In this document: positions 21,254-28,705 of the stretch, piece by piece
Layout of the letters: each line of letters opens with the position of its first letter
Position numbering within the stretch: position 1 is the stretch's first letter
Origin: Bacteroidales bacterium
GTDB lineage: Bacteria; Bacteroidota; Bacteroidia; Bacteroidales; G3-4614
Assembly: GCA_017559955.1 (NCBI GenBank)
Contig: JAFYPQ010000006.1
Coordinates: 1-64,000, forward strand
DNA length: 64,000 bases
Reading direction: 5' to 3'
Notes under the pieces: model-generated
Seen by the model: only the letters and a program-made list of their open reading frames with translations
What the model was told of the DNA's origin: nothing
The model's database searches: none
Made by a program: the position numbers and the translations under genes

Positions 21254-22324
21254 TTATTTATTTTTGATATAATCAACTATCCATTTACCAACTTCAGAAG
21301 TTTTATACGATTTCTCTCCTTGTGCAATATCTACTGTAACTATACCAGCATCTATTGATGCAGAAACAGCTTCACGAATTAATTTTCCCTCTTCCATTAG
21401 TCCGAATGCATATTCAAACATTAATGCTGCTGAAAGAATAGTTGCCAATGGGTTAGCAATATCTTTTCCTGCTGCTTGTGGATATGAGCCATGAATAGGT
21501 TCAAACACAGATGTATGTAAACCTACCGAAGCTGATGGTAACATTCCAAGTGAGCCTGTAATTACAGAAGCTTCATCTGTTAATATATCACCAAACATAT
21601 TTTCTGTTACCATTACATCAAAGCGAGATGGCCATTGTACAAGTTGCATTGCCGCATTATCAACGAACATAAATTCTGTTTCAACTTCGGGATACTCTTT
21701 CGAAATTTCTTGAGCAACCTCTCTCCACATACGTGAAGTACAAAGGACATTGGCTTTATCAACAACAGTAACTTTTTTTCTGCGTTGCATTGCATAAGTA
21801 TAGGCAAGGCGAACAATTCTATCAATCTCTTCACGAGAATATACACAAGTATCGTATGCAACATTACCGTCTTCACTTCTGCCTTGGGGGCGACCAAAAT
21901 ATATACCTCCTGTAAGTTCTCTAATACACATTAAATCGGTACCTTCAACTACATCTTGTCGAAGAGGCGATTTATGAATTAGCTGAGGCATTGTTGATAC
22001 AGGACGAATATTTGCATATAGTCCCAACTGCTTACGCATACCCAATAAACCTTGCTCAGGACGCACCTTTGCAGAAGGATTGTTATCATATTTAGGATCT
22101 CCAATTGCTCCGAAAAGAACAGCGTCCGACTCCATACATATTTTGTGCGTCTCTTCAGGATATGGGTTACCTGTCGCATCAATTGCACAAGCTCCAACAA
22201 GAGCATGTTTATATGTTAATTCGTGTCCATATTTCTCGCATACAGCAATAGTTGCATCTAATGCGGTTGCCACTATTTCTGGTCCTATGCCATCGCCAGG
22301 CAACACGGCTATATTCATTTTCAT
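21254..22324 (-). CDS. leuB: 3-isopropylmalate dehydrogenase
   Basis: Oxidatively decarboxylates 3-isopropylmalate in leucine synthesis. The 356-residue protein has [11 protein letters not shown] at the N-terminus, the substrate loop [11 protein letters not shown], the [14 protein letters not shown] segment, and the NAD site loop with [15 protein letters not shown]. It is the last gene of the leu operon, 29 bases after leuA2. Standard length. Confidence 0.97.
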
Positions 22325-22353: not shown

Positions 22354-23877
22354 TTATAACTCTTCAATATGATTTAGCATCTTTATAGTTGCTTGAATTG
22401 CAGCAGACATCTGATCAAGATCTAATCCATAAGTTTTAAATATTTTTCCTTTATAGTCCCATGTGATGGATGTCTGCACCAATGCATCTGTTCTTCCTCC
22501 GGGAGGGATATTTACTGTATAATCCAGAAGTTGAGGGAATGGTTTATGTAGTTTAGTTTTATAAATCCATTGTATACCTTTAACAAATGCATCATACTGT
22601 CCATCTCCGGTCGCTCCTGCTTCATAAATTTCGCCGTTTATTTCAAGTTTTAAAACAGCTCCGGGTCGTAATCCGTTAGCAACTGCAAGAGTGTAATTTA
22701 ATAAAGTAATTCGCTGTTTCTGAGAATTTCGATTTAGAGTATCTGATATAATATATGGTAAATCCTCCTGTGATATTATCTCTTTTTTGTCTCCTAATTC
22801 AATAATTCTCTCTGTTACTTTACGCATCGATTCTTCGTCAAGTTCAATGCCCATTGCTTCGAGATTTTTACGAATGTTGGCTTTGCCGGATGTTTTACCT
22901 AATGCATATTCTCTCATTCTTCCAAAACGCTCAGGAAGCAAATCGTTGTAGTATAGATTATTTTTACTATCACCGTCTGCATGAACTCCTGCACACTGTG
23001 TAAATACATTATCGCCTATTACAGGTTTGTTTGCAGGTATTCTTATGCCGGAATACGATTCAACGACTCTACTTACGTGGTTTATTTTTACTTCATTAAT
23101 TGAAGTTTTAATATCTAATTGGTCGTGAACAACAGCAAGAACACTCGATAATGCTGCATTACCGGCTCTTTCCCCCAAACCATTAATTGTACAATGAATC
23201 CCTTTTATACCGGCTTTAATTGCAGCATAACAATTTGCTACCGCTAAATCATAATCATTATGAGCGTGAAAATCGAAATGAAGAGTAGGGTATCTGTCAA
23301 TAATCTCTTTGCAAAATTTATAGGTAGAATCAGGATTTAGCACTCCTAATGTATCAGGTAACATAAATCTCTTTATGTTGCACTTACATAATGCATCAAT
23401 TAAGTTGAAAACATACTCTGGTGAATCTTTCATTCCGTTCGACCAGTCCTCAAGGTATAGGTTTACCTCAATACCATTTTGGTTTGCGATATCAATTTCG
23501 TGCTTGATATCGTTTATATGCTCTTTGGGAGTTTTCTTTAATTGATATTGGCAGTGTCTAAGCGAACCTTTACTTAACAGATTTACAACTTTTCCCCCTG
23601 CTTCTTTAATCCAATTAATTGAAACACCATTATCAATAAATCCTAATACCTCAATAGAATTTATTTTTTTATGTTTCGAAGCCCAATCGCAAACTTGCTT
23701 TACAGCTTCCATCTCTCCGGCAGAAACTCTTGCAGAGGCAATCTCAATTCTATTTACCTTAATCTCTTTCAGAAGAAGACGTGCAATACTCAACTTTTCA
23801 AATGCACCAAACGAAACGCCCGAAGTTTGTTCTCCGTCACGAAGAGTGGTATCCATTATTTCAAGTTTGTATTTCAT
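22354..23877 (-). CDS. LeuA2/CimA-like alpha-isopropylmalate synthase family protein
   Basis: A 507-residue member of the DRE-TIM synthase family: [17 protein letters not shown] at the N-terminus, [20 protein letters not shown], and [15 protein letters not shown]. The C-terminal LeuA regulatory (dimerisation) domain is present (from about residue 395). It shares its operon with a second synthase gene, leuA, and lies between leuD and leuB. It may make citramalate (isoleucine from pyruvate and acetyl-CoA) or a longer-chain isopropylmalate; the choice cannot be settled from sequence alone. Four bases separate it from leuD. Confidence 0.85.
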
Positions 23878-23881
23878 ACCT

Positions 23882-24469
23882 TTATCTATTATTTTCCCAG
23901 GTTTCTATGTCGTTTTTCTTGCTTAGCAGATAATCTATATCGTCAAATCCATTAAGCAAACAATCTTTTTTGTAGGGGTTTATTTCGAATTTCTCCGAAG
24001 CTCCTGTTGCATTATTTGTTATTGTTTGATTAGGTAAATCAATAGTAACTGTATTTGAATGGTTTGCATTAATAGCTTCAAAAATCTCTTGAAGAAATTT
24101 TTCAGAAACTACAACAGTCAAAACACAATTGTTTAAAGCATTATTTTTAAATATGTCAGCAAAGAAACTTGAAACGACAGCTCTAAACCCATATCCTGCA
24201 ACAGCCCATGCTGCATGTTCACGACTTGAACCGCTTCCGAAATTTTTACCTGCAACCAATATCGAACCTGAATAATCAGGATTATTTAATACGAAATTTT
24301 CAATTTTATTACCCTCCTTGTCATATCTCCAATCACGGAATAGATTGTCTCCAAATCCTTCACGAGTGGTTGCCTTCAAAAAACGAGCGGGTATTATTTG
24401 GTCTGTATCCACATTCTCAATAGGTAATGGGATGCAAGTTGATGTTAATTTCTCAAATTTTTCTCTCAT
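23882..24469 (-). CDS. leuD: 3-isopropylmalate dehydratase small subunit
   Basis: The swivelling small subunit of isopropylmalate isomerase, working with LeuC. The 195-residue protein has [32 protein letters not shown] and [18 protein letters not shown], all diagnostic. It is 18 bases after leuC and 4 bases before leuA2, consistent with one transcript. Confidence 0.96.
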
Positions 24470-24487: not shown

Positions 24488-25888
24488 TTAAATAAATTCA
24501 CGAGGATCTGTTATTTTCCCAGTAATTGCGGCAACTGCAGCAACAATAGGACTTGCAAGCATTGTTCTCGCTCCGGGACCTTGACGTCCTTCAAAATTTC
24601 TGTTTGAAGTAGAAACTGATATTTTACCTGCAGGAATCTTATCATCATTCATTGCCAAACATGCCGAACAACCGGGTTGACGAAGTTCAAATCCAGCCTC
24701 TTCAAGTATTTTGTCAATACCTTCAGCTCTTATAGCTTTCTCAACATTCCACGAACCAGGTACTAACCAAGCTGTAACGTTATCAGCTTTTTTATGCCCT
24801 TTAACAACTTTGGCAAAAGTTCTAAAATCTTCAATACGACCATTTGTACAGCTGCCTAAGAAGACATAATCAATCTCTTTGCCAAGAACTTTTTCGCCTG
24901 GTTTGAAGCCCATATATAATAGTGATTTCTCAAATGAAATTCTACCTGCATCGTCGATATCTTCTATTGTGGGGATATTTGCATCTATTGCCATACCCAT
25001 ACCCGGATTTGTACCATATGTAATCATAGGGGCAATATCTACAGCATCAAAATTAACCTCTTTATCAAATATAGCACCCTCGTCTGTCGGTAATTTTTTC
25101 CACTCTTCCACAGCTTTATCCCAAGCCTCTCCCTGAGGTGCAAATTCTCTGCCTTTTAAGTACTCAAAAGTAATCTCATCAGGTGCAATCATTCCTCCGC
25201 GAGCTCCCATTTCAATACTCATATTGCATAGAGTCATACGTCCTTCCATAGATAGTGAACGAATGGCACTTCCTGCAAATTCAACAAAGTATCCTGTTGC
25301 TCCTCCTGTAGTCATCTTTGAGATTAGATATAATGCAATATCTTTAGCTGTAACTCCTTTTTGAAGCTCTCCTTCAACATTAATACGCATTTTCATAGGT
25401 TTGGGCTGTAATACACATTGCGATGCAAGAACCATCTCTACTTCACTTGTGCCTATACCAAACGCTACAGCACCCATTGCTCCGTGTGTCGAAGTGTGGC
25501 TATCTCCACAAACAATTGTCATACCGGGTTGGGTGTATCCGTTCTCCGGTCCAATAACATGAATAATACCATTTTTAGGATTAAGTAATCCATAAACAGT
25601 CAAACCAAAATCTTTAGCATTTTTCATCAAGGTATCTACTTGATTGCGAGAAATAGGATCTGATATTGGTTTATCTTGGTTTAGGGTAGGTATGTTATGG
25701 TCAGGAGAACATGTCGTTCTTTCTGGACGGAAAACCGATAAATTCCTCTCCCTTAATCCTGCAAATGCTTGAGGACTTGTTACCTCATGAAGGTAATGTC
25801 TGTCAATATATAATTGATTTGGACCACCTTCTATTTTTGATACCACATGTGCATCCCAAATTTTATCAAATAAGGTTTTCTTTTCCAT
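24488..25888 (-). CDS. leuC: 3-isopropylmalate dehydratase large subunit
   Basis: The 4Fe-4S aconitase-type large subunit of isopropylmalate isomerase. The 466-residue protein contains [15 protein letters not shown], the first cluster cysteine in [13 protein letters not shown], and the CSAC pair in [14 protein letters not shown], giving the three cluster ligands. It pairs with LeuD immediately downstream. 14 bases separate it from leuA. Confidence 0.97.
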
Positions 25889-25902: not shown

Positions 25903-27396
25903 TTATCTAACAAATTTATTTATTGCATCAACAAAAGCTTCAGCCGAAGCGGCAACAATATCAGTGTTTGCTCCAAATCCGTAATAACTTTCGTTATTGT
26001 ATGAGACAGTCATATGAACTTTTCCTGTATCATCGCTACCTTTTGTTATGGCTTGAATCAGGAACTCTTCAACAGTCATATTTCTGTGAATAATATTTTT
26101 GATTGCATTGATTGCCGCATCAACAGGTCCATTACCAGATGCTGCCGATTCGAATTTTTCACCAGCTATTGAAAGACCGATACTCGCTACCGAACGAACA
26201 TCAATACCTGATGTAACTTGTAAATAATCGATTGATATGCGAGCTTTCTCTCCTCTGCTTTTACCAACCAACATCAATATATCATCATCGTTTATATCTT
26301 TTTTACGGTCGGCAAGTGCTAAAAATTCAGCATAAGCTTTATCTAAATCTTCTTGAGAAAGTTCTACACCAAGAACGTTTAGACGATGTTTTAATGCAGC
26401 TCTACCGCTTCGTGCTGTAAGCACGATAGAGTTTTCATCGATACCAACATCTTTGGGATCAATAATTTCATAATTCTCTCTGTTTTTTAGAACTCCGTCT
26501 TGGTGTATTCCCGATGAGTGTGCAAATGCATTTCTACCAACAATAGCTTTGTTGGGTTGTACAGGCATATTCATCATACTTGAAACCATACGGCTTGTAG
26601 AGTAAATTTTTTGAGTATTAATATTAGTCTCAATACCCTTGTTATGGCTCTTAAATGTCATAACAACCTCTTCAAGAGATGTATTTCCTGCACGTTCTCC
26701 AATACCGTTGATTGTTACCTCGGCCTGACGAGCACCATTCAAAATACCCGAAACAGTATTTGCTGTTGCCATACCAAGGTCGTTATGACAGTGTGTAGCA
26801 ATAACTACATTATCAATTCCTTTAACATTCTCTTTTAGATATAAAATCTTTTTACCAAAATCCTCTGGTAAACAATAACCTGTTGTGTCAGGAATATTAA
26901 TTACTGTAGCTCCGGCTTTTACAACAGCCTCAACCACACGAGCAAGGTATTCGTTATCTGTTCTGCCGGCATCTTCAGCATAAAATTGAACATCCTCAAC
27001 ATATTTTTTCGCATATTTAACACATGCAATAGCTCGCTCAATAATCTCTTCACGAGTAGAATTAAACTTGTATTTAATATGATAATCAGATGTTCCTATG
27101 CCTGTGTGAATACGTTTACGTTTTGCATATTTAAGTGCTTCGGCAGCAGCATCAATATCTTTTTCAACGGCACGAGTCAAAGCACATATTGTAGGCCATG
27201 TAACGGCTTTCGAAATCTCAACAACCGATTTAAAATCTCCGGGGCTTGAAACAGGGAATCCTGCCTCTATAACATCAACGCCCAAAGTTTCCAAGGCTTT
27301 GGCTACCTGAATTTTTTCTACTGTATTTAATTGGCAACCTGGAACTTGCTCACCATCTCTTAATGTTGTATCAAAAATAAAAAGTCTGTCTGACAT
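25903..27396 (-). CDS. leuA: 2-isopropylmalate synthase
   Basis: Commits 2-ketoisovalerate and acetyl-CoA to leucine. The 497-residue enzyme has the metal-binding [13 protein letters not shown] start, [41 protein letters not shown], and the C-terminal LeuA regulatory domain (feedback by leucine). It is the first structural gene of the operon; its mRNA is preceded by the leader peptide and attenuator at 27434-27560. Confidence 0.96.
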
Positions 27397-27433
27397 AGTT
27401 TTTTTATATTAAATATTATTACTCTAAATAAAG

Positions 27434-27467
27434 AAAACCTTCCACACTATGGAGTGAGAAAGGTTTT
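27434..27467 (-). terminator. Attenuator terminator of the leu operon
   Basis: Minus-strand AAAACCTT (27467-27460) pairs with AAGGTTTT (27441-27434), with inner CACT/AGTG, followed by CTTTATTT. It lies 37 bases upstream of leuA and just past the leader peptide. The segment TCTCACTCC inside it can pair instead with the upstream GGAGTGAGA, giving an antiterminator. Confidence 0.8.
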
Positions 27468-27500
27468 TATATAAATTAATTACACACAATATCTCACTCC
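27451..27500 (-). promoter_or_regulatory. Antiterminator pairing of the leu attenuator
   Basis: Minus-strand GGAGTGAGA (27500-27492), which starts directly at the leader-peptide stop codon, is perfectly complementary over nine bases to TCTCACTCC (27459-27451) in the terminator. A ribosome that finishes the leader peptide would cover the first arm and allow termination; a ribosome stalled at the leucine codons would leave it free and prevent termination. Confidence 0.7.
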
Positions 27501-27560
27501 CTATCGTTTGTTGAGCAATAGCGACAGAATAATTAGAGATAAAATGTATAAATTTTTCAT
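27501..27560 (-). CDS. leuL: Leucine-rich leader peptide of the leu operon
   Basis: A 19-residue frame, MKNLYILSLIILSLLLNKR, with seven leucines, three of them consecutive (residues 14-16), and three isoleucines. Five of the six leucine codons are used. The stop codon abuts the first arm of the antiterminator. Geometry, amino-acid bias and position before leuA together make this a translation-coupled attenuation peptide. No classical ribosome-binding site is visible, as usual for this phylum. Confidence 0.8.
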   Translation of the reverse strand: MKNLYILSLIILSLLLNKR

Positions 27561-27621: not shown

Positions 27622-27629
27622 CAAAGATA
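27622..27629 (-). promoter_or_regulatory. -7 promoter element for the leu leader
   Basis: Minus-strand TATCTTTG matches TAnnTTTG. Transcription would start near 27615, about 55 bases before the leader-peptide start. The remaining region up to 27790 is AT-rich with no feature I can support. Confidence 0.55.
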
Positions 27630-27798
27630 TAAATAATGTCGCTATTTGCAAAATAAAAATAGAAAAAAATGCAAAATAATTATCAATTAAATTTTTAATT
27701 ATCATTTTACTTATAGAGTATAAGTATTTTAGATTGCTATGACAAAATCTTATTGATATATTTATTTTATCAATAAAACTCACTAAATAAAAAAGAAA

Positions 27799-27817
27799 CT
27801 GCCGATGCTATCGGCAG
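27799..27817 (-). terminator. Terminator after rpoD
   Basis: CTGCCGAT/ATCGGCAG stem with a three-base loop. On the minus strand it follows the rpoD stop and precedes TTTCTTTTTTATTT, a strong U-tract. Confidence 0.88.
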
Positions 27818-27844
27818 TTCATATAAATTCTTTCTAACAAAAAT

Positions 27845-28705
27845 TTAACCGAGAAATGTTTTAAGGTGAATACTTCTCGAATTCTGTCTTAGTCGGCGAA
27901 TTGCTTTTTCTTTAATTTGGCGTACACGTTCACGAGTTAAACCAAATTTGTCTCCAATCTCTTCAAGTGTCATCTCTTGACAGCCAATACCAAAGAACAT
28001 TTTAACAATTTCGCTCTCACGAGGAGTTAAAGTACCTAATGCTCTATCTATCTCTTTAGATAGAGATTCGTTAATTAGCGGACGATCAGCATTAGGTGAG
28101 TCGTCATTTACAAGAACGTCAAGTAAACTATTGTCCTCTCCTTCAACAAATGGAGCATCAACAGAGATATGACGACCTGAAACTTTCATCGTATCGGCAA
28201 TCTTATCTACAGGCATATCAAGTTGTTCAGCTAACTCTTCCACTGAAGGTCTTCGTTCGTTGTCTTGCTCAAAACGAGAAAAAGCTTTGCTTATTTTATT
28301 TAACGAGCCCACCTGATTTAGAGGAAGCCTAACAATTCTTGATTGTTCAGCTAATGCTTGTAATATTGATTGGCGAATCCACCAGACAGCATAAGAAATA
28401 AACTTAAATCCACGTGTTTCATCGAATTTCTCTGCAGCTTTAATAAGACCGAGGTTGCCTTCGTTGATAAGATCGGGTAGGGAGAGTCCTTGATTTTGAT
28501 ATTGTTTAGCAACAGAAACAACAAAACGAAGATTTGCCCTTGTTAACTTATCAAGAGCAGCTCTATCTCCTTTTCTAATTTTAGCAGCTAATTCAACCTC
28601 TTCCTCTACTGTAATAAGTTCCTCTCGTCCAATCTCTTGCAAATACTTATCGAGTGAAGCACTTTCACGATTTGTAATAGATTTAGTAATCTTTAGTTGT
28701 CTCAT
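27845..28705 (-). CDS. rpoD: Primary sigma factor (short Bacteroidetes type)
   Basis: A 286-residue sigma-70 factor. It lacks the long region 1.1 of proteobacterial RpoD. Seen in order: region 1.2 ([15 protein letters not shown]), region 2 with [20 protein letters not shown] and the -10 helix [15 protein letters not shown], region 3 ([19 protein letters not shown]), region 4 with the C-terminal helix-turn-helix [20 protein letters not shown]. This is the form that reads TAnnTTTG promoters. Monocistronic, with its own terminator. Confidence 0.96.

Follow-up and report, generated by a model that had tools for sequence, protein, structure and literature searches.

A leader with the anatomy of a ribosome-mediated attenuator upstream of a Bacteroidales leucine operon, and its relatives before other amino-acid biosynthesis genes

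Attenuation of leu operons by means of a leader peptide is a textbook mechanism, which in the enterobacterial leu attenuator (leuL) combines a leader peptide rich in control codons for Leu with a protector (1:2), an antiterminator (2:3) and a terminator (3:4) helix before leuA. Control of this kind requires a ribosome close behind RNA polymerase. The stretch of DNA analysed here (the window) comprises 64,000 nucleotides of contig JAFYPQ010000006.1 from a Bacteroidales bacterium. The region that precedes its leuA gene shares with the enterobacterial system (RF00512 Leu_leader) the Leu leader and the 1:2, 2:3 and 3:4 helices, but differs from it in a leader that is also Ile-rich, in a promoter of the Bacteroidota type and in the presence of a cimA-like gene in the operon. 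The leader peptide gene and its three competing hairpins almost certainly make up a switch that would activate the leu genes once leucine for the ribosome becomes scarce, and the element before the operon is very likely a classical ribosome-mediated transcription attenuator, because its helices exclude one another, are conserved and covary, its Leu codons lie at a fixed spacing, and the leaders of related elements match the pathway downstream.

Attenuators were compared by Lopatovskaya et al. in 2010, in a study that reportedly may cover Bacteroidetes. That study is cited in PMC4833913, and a wide attenuator screen of 2010 leaves Bacteroidetes unmentioned (PMC2965389). In other phyla, a Leu-rich leader controls branched-chain synthesis in the ilv/leu attenuators of Staphylococcus aureus and Corynebacterium, as described in the accessible portions of the reports (PMC5794164, PMC1262725). 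Closer to the window, a transcriptome of Flavobacterium psychrophilum gave 'strong clues' for leader-peptide attenuation upstream of amino-acid biosynthesis operons (PMC9723704); it concerns the same phylum but another lineage, and its main text, as far as accessible, contains neither leu detail nor a Bacteroidales element with covariation. A map of B. thetaiotaomicron also mentions leader-peptide-like sORFs (PMC7366714). The view taken in a first-pass annotation of the window, that such a switch would be little documented in Bacteroidales, is sound insofar as the order is barely documented, but the accessible parts of the latter two reports do not allow it to be widened to a phylum wholly undocumented. 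The mechanism is known; the family of elements is apparently undescribed in the accessible literature.

All features of the window described below lie on the reverse strand. The operon has the gene order leuA-leuC-leuD-cimA-like-leuB, in which leuA (25903..27396), encoding 2-isopropylmalate synthase, reaches 733.8 bits against NCBIfam model NF002086 (cut-off 532), and leuC (24488..25888; TIGR00170), leuD (23882..24469; TIGR00171) and leuB (21254..22324; TIGR00169) score above the cut-offs of their models. The remaining gene (22354..23877) encodes a second synthase closest to (R)-citramalate synthase CimA of the isoleucine route, nearest to that of Leptospira (NF042433), with 656.8 bits, below the curated cut-off of 950. 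Three PALP-fold enzymes only were found in the genome, which is 86% complete, and from length and sequence they are read as CysK-, TrpB- and ThrC-like, the TrpB-like enzyme alone having been translated; no IlvA-like enzyme was recognised in this 86% complete genome. Because the leu operon encodes a CimA-like synthase and an IlvA-like enzyme was not recognised, isoleucine may be made from citramalate through LeuC, LeuD and LeuB. A leader sensing both Leu and Ile would therefore make sense, and the Ile codons of the leader probably fit an operon that also supplies isoleucine by this route. Upstream of the leader, an rpoD-like gene (27845-28705) is separated from the leu operon by a terminator-like hairpin just downstream of it (27796..27820).

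The leader frame itself (27560-27501) reads directly as 19 codons and a stop, ATG AAA AAT TTA TAC ATT TTA TCT CTA ATT ATT CTG TCG CTA TTG CTC AAC AAA CGA TAG, and would be translated as MKNLYILSLIILSLLLNKR, a leuL-like peptide with seven Leu and a closing run of three; a Leu/Ile-rich leader occupies the same place across Bacteroidales. The control codons CTA TTG CTC (27513..27521) end 12 nt before the antiterminator arm. Further upstream, a -33 element TTTG (27649..27652) is followed, across a spacer of 19 nt, by a -7 element TATCTTTG (27622..27629) of the TAnnTTTG type, together a Bacteroidota-type promoter. The first-pass annotation had described a 19-residue frame with seven Leu, three of them consecutive, ending directly at the first arm of a nine-base antiterminator, the second arm of which lies inside a terminator just before leuA, and a correctly placed TAnnTTTG promoter upstream. 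Direct reading agrees with each of these statements and with all of the coordinates, and the folds likewise yield the antiterminator and terminator.

With the frame ending at 27501, the 5' arm of the antiterminator, segment 2 (GGAGTGAGA, 27492..27500), begins at the next nucleotide. It is the exact complement of the 3' arm, segment 3 (TCTCACTCC, 27451..27459), which overlaps the 5' arm of the terminator; both arms are seen by direct reading, folding and covariation. The intrinsic terminator hairpin formed by segments 3:4 (27434..27467) reaches -15.1 kcal/mol when folded alone (z -4.7, with 0 of 200 shuffles as good), and the UUUU of its stem runs into a U-rich tail CUUUAUUU (27426..27433), the whole U-tract being interrupted (UUUUCUUUAUUU), a feature that counts against the attenuator reading. 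When a longer segment includes both arms, the antiterminator is the predicted fold (-20.4, z -3.0), and when the first arm is blocked, as it would be by a ribosome, the terminator is predicted to form, such that the two helices are mutually exclusive in the folds of the window. The leader through segment 2 gives a further hairpin of -15.9 kcal/mol that joins the Leu-codon region to segment 2. Here segment 1, CTATTG (27516..27521), pairs with CGATAG (27506-27501), or alternatively TTCTGTCG (27529-27522) pairs with CGATAGGG (27506-27499), and the 3' side of this protector hairpin (27499..27506) runs into the antiterminator arm. In the window alone the protector is present but matched by 42% of shuffles; the homologous hairpin covaries in 31 relatives.

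These parts suggest the following course of events. RNA polymerase would start at the TTTG/TAnnTTTG promoter and make the leader, and a ribosome would begin translating the 19-codon peptide. With ample Leu-tRNA the ribosome would arrive at the stop codon and cover segment 2, or would release it to re-pair with the Leu-codon segment 1, and in both states the terminator 3:4 would form and transcription would end near 27434. With charged Leu-tRNA scarce, the ribosome would stall on CTA-TTG-CTC, occupying segment 1, and segment 2, which lies 12 nt further on, could then pair with segment 3; no terminator would then form, and leuA-leuC-leuD-cimA-leuB would be transcribed. We infer from anatomy, conservation and covariation that the leader is translated, that the ribosome stalls, that transcription terminates and that the switch responds to leucine.

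Covariation of the antiterminator and terminator was counted on 55 aligned elements, and that of the protector on 31 sequences aligned over the end of the leader. The antiterminator keeps 80.7% of its pairs, compared with at most 50% when the arms are slid against each other, and has 28 double-change cells where shuffles give 8.3; the terminator keeps 91%, with 40 double changes (10.3 in shuffles), and the protector 84.9% (at most 64% when slid), with 33 double changes (12.6 in shuffles). RNAalifold, unprompted, returned from the 31 sequences a hairpin in which the last Leu codons pair with the 5' end of segment 2. Over 54 elements the mean probability that segment 2 pairs with the leader is 0.84, whereas leaders that had been shuffled give 0.66 (Wilcoxon p about 2e-9, uncorrected for relatedness). 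A duplex test (mean z -0.9) had pointed to a Bacteroidales version of the attenuator lacking the 1:2 hairpin, a version overturned by the pairing probabilities and the covariation. All three helices of the classical attenuator (1:2, 2:3 and 3:4) are thus conserved in relatives. The compensatory changes that the first-pass annotation had proposed to look for between 27492-27500 and 27451-27459 are present, as they are in the terminator, and with the conserved frame they support its proposal of attenuation before leuA. Its antiterminator and terminator were as claimed, but it had missed the protector helix, which emerged from the folds, RNAalifold and covariation. Since the protector makes the classical design complete, termination should also follow when the ribosome has been released or is absent altogether; a ribosome on the stop codon, as first proposed, is accepted as one terminating state but not as the only one.

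The covariation also bears on whether the leader might be constitutive, the terminator serving only to lower leu expression or to end read-through from upstream, with an alternative pairing of no regulatory role. The rpoD-like gene does lie upstream on the same strand, and intergenic terminators are common. However, that gene already has its own terminator-like hairpin, the conserved promoter between this hairpin and the leader would be without purpose, and so would covariation in two more helices incompatible with the terminator or with its antagonist; a constitutive leader is accordingly judged extremely unlikely.

That the ribosome is the sensor is suggested by geometry. The last Leu codon is separated from the antiterminator arm by a median of 12 nt (interquartile range 10-12, sd 3.2, n=54), which places the control codons at a conserved one ribosome footprint from the arm, whereas the stop codon ends at positions that vary from 5 nt upstream of the beginning of segment 2 to 34 nt beyond it, a range of about 39 nt (sd 11.6). 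A fixed distance from the Leu codons together with a wandering stop codon is what is expected if a stalled ribosome is the sensor. Given a footprint of about 12-15 nt on each side, a ribosome at the stop codon would in most cases still overlap segment 2, wholly or in part. Between elements the two final Leu codons differ synonymously, and all six Leu codons are in use.

Two mutually exclusive hairpins would nevertheless serve any sensor, and the switch could be real and yet respond to a metabolite (a riboswitch), a tRNA (a T-box) or a protein, the Leu-rich frame being incidental; the conserved non-coding GGTGTGTnTATA stretch that follows segment 2 would be in keeping with such a sensor. This reading is very unlikely, as the residues of the leaders follow the pathway downstream, the fixed 12-nt spacing refers to the Leu codons and these vary synonymously, and no large conserved aptamer lies between leader and switch. 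Nor is there a T-box, riboswitch or other Rfam match: the T-box leader RF00230 finds nothing in the window or related loci at gathering or permissive thresholds, RF00512 nothing in the same loci at its gathering score or even at E up to 10, and no family of Rfam 15 matches the leader at gathering or permissive thresholds. The GGTGTGTnTATA-like stretch (27490-27475 in the window; alignment columns 73-84) is conserved with the leader frame running through it or not, and is possibly a polymerase pause signal.

At least seven Leu are found in 57 of the 690 short ATG frames of the window, and a Leu-rich frame alone is thus unremarkable in A+T-rich DNA. Leu-richness was dropped as stand-alone evidence for this reason, and the whole anatomy was scored instead, by a detector that combined a Leu/Ile-rich ATG frame and a terminator with a helix, 7 or more pairs long, joining the vicinity of the stop codon to the terminator's 5' arm. 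The upstream regions of leuA homologues numbered 24 from a genome search and 80 from GTDB genomes, 103 of them long enough. The detector matched 45 of the 103 real Bacteroidales regions and 1 of 1030 dinucleotide shuffles. The former count is a lower bound, as several clear cases missed the strict rules; over half of the sampled regions were not detected, in part a result of this strictness. Among the hosts are Bacteroides gallinarum, Phocaeicola, Parabacteroides, Tannerella, Barnesiella, Prevotella, Paludibacteraceae, Prolixibacteraceae and a Draconibacterium MAG, and some lineages have no leader, such as the Muribaculaceae MAGs L031, L032, L050 and L103. Of 54 homologous elements, 46 carry a TAnnTTTG motif in the 110 nt that precede the leader ATG, against 5.9 expected by shuffling. 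The short Leu-rich frame, for which an alignment across Bacteroidales had been suggested at the outset, is therefore conserved upstream of leuA. The frequency of Leu-rich frames in the window is the kind of count that would favour a fortuitous frame and hairpin in an A+T-rich intergenic region, but conservation refutes such a coincidence, and with the detector counts, three covarying helices and matching leaders at ilvD, pheA and hisG its probability is negligible.

The leaders are not uniform. In Bacteroides, Phocaeicola and Prevotella (L013, L034, L041, L061, L075, L080 and others) the leader frame runs through the antiterminator arm, where it encodes a conserved Gly-Ser-Glu/Asp, and several Prevotella leaders have more Ile than Leu.

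A covariance model built from the element (R1) was run on 119 genomes of the order and has matches in 49, often at more than one place in a genome. Further copies precede ilvD, with leaders such as MKSQLLTSLVSVVVVVNEGK that contain Val, Ile and Leu, and pheA, with leaders MKNFSFAYYFFFYFYFYGKK and, in the genus to which the window belongs, MRRNSFRFFFFFAFFFCNGRNGVSYLY. In the rest of the phylum R1 matches are weaker, several of them before ilvE or ilvN with Ile-rich leaders. Leader residues track the pathway, with Leu/Ile before leuA, Val-bearing leaders before ilvD, Phe/Tyr at 45% of residues before pheA and His at 30% before hisG. The leaders before leuA, ilvD and ilvE/ilvN were chosen by Leu/Ile/Val content, and the pheA leaders found with R1 emerged despite that rule; selection by eye among all short ATG frames gave the hisG leaders and another two pheA leaders. 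A second attenuator in the window's own genome precedes hisG (L204, G000:C37:38990), with the leader MKATHKHIHLHHLNS, 5 of whose 15 residues are His, and with its own terminator and complementary arm; similar ones are found in G003, G006 and G009. In the same genome (G000) pheA (L188) and ilvD (L198) have no such leader, unlike their relatives, and control at these two genes has apparently been lost or replaced. A thrA leader was sought in the window's genus and none was convincing; trpE in the own genome gives a weak, partial match, and no trpE leader was seen in three relatives with trpE, where the gene appears directly behind another. No phage relatives were found.

The Proteobacterial ilv, pheA, his and thr attenuators follow the same logic, their leader residues matching the pathway as in the ilvD, pheA and hisG elements here, but in Bacteroidota a single recognisable family (R1) stands before leuA, ilvD and pheA, sometimes in tandem. 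On balance we favour, with moderate confidence, a phylum-wide and largely unrecognised regulon of ribosome-mediated attenuators in Bacteroidota, in which one RNA element, at times in tandem, has its leader codons re-specified for each operon, to Leu before leuA, to Val/Ile before ilvD and ilvE/ilvN, and to Phe/Tyr before pheA. If true, such a regulon would mean that transcription and translation are functionally coupled in a phylum where Shine-Dalgarno initiation is hardly used. Attenuator conservation in Bacteroidales would be indirect evidence of coupling in a major gut group whose promoters and translation starts are non-canonical, and the leader could serve as a simple reporter for it. The elements would add a family of Bacteroidales leader RNAs (leuA/ilvD/pheA) that nothing in Rfam 15 matches, would correct the view of classical attenuation as mainly a Proteobacterial device, and predict for gut bacteria a response of branched-chain amino-acid synthesis to supply. 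Judged from sequence, the distribution of classical attenuation appears wider than generally appreciated, and widespread in Bacteroidales.

At three loci (L184 in G112:C25, L185 in G149:C23 and L187 in G029:C112) two attenuators stand in tandem before ilvD or ilvN, both of them complete with a leader frame and a terminator, an arrangement that would place two sensors in series on one transcript.
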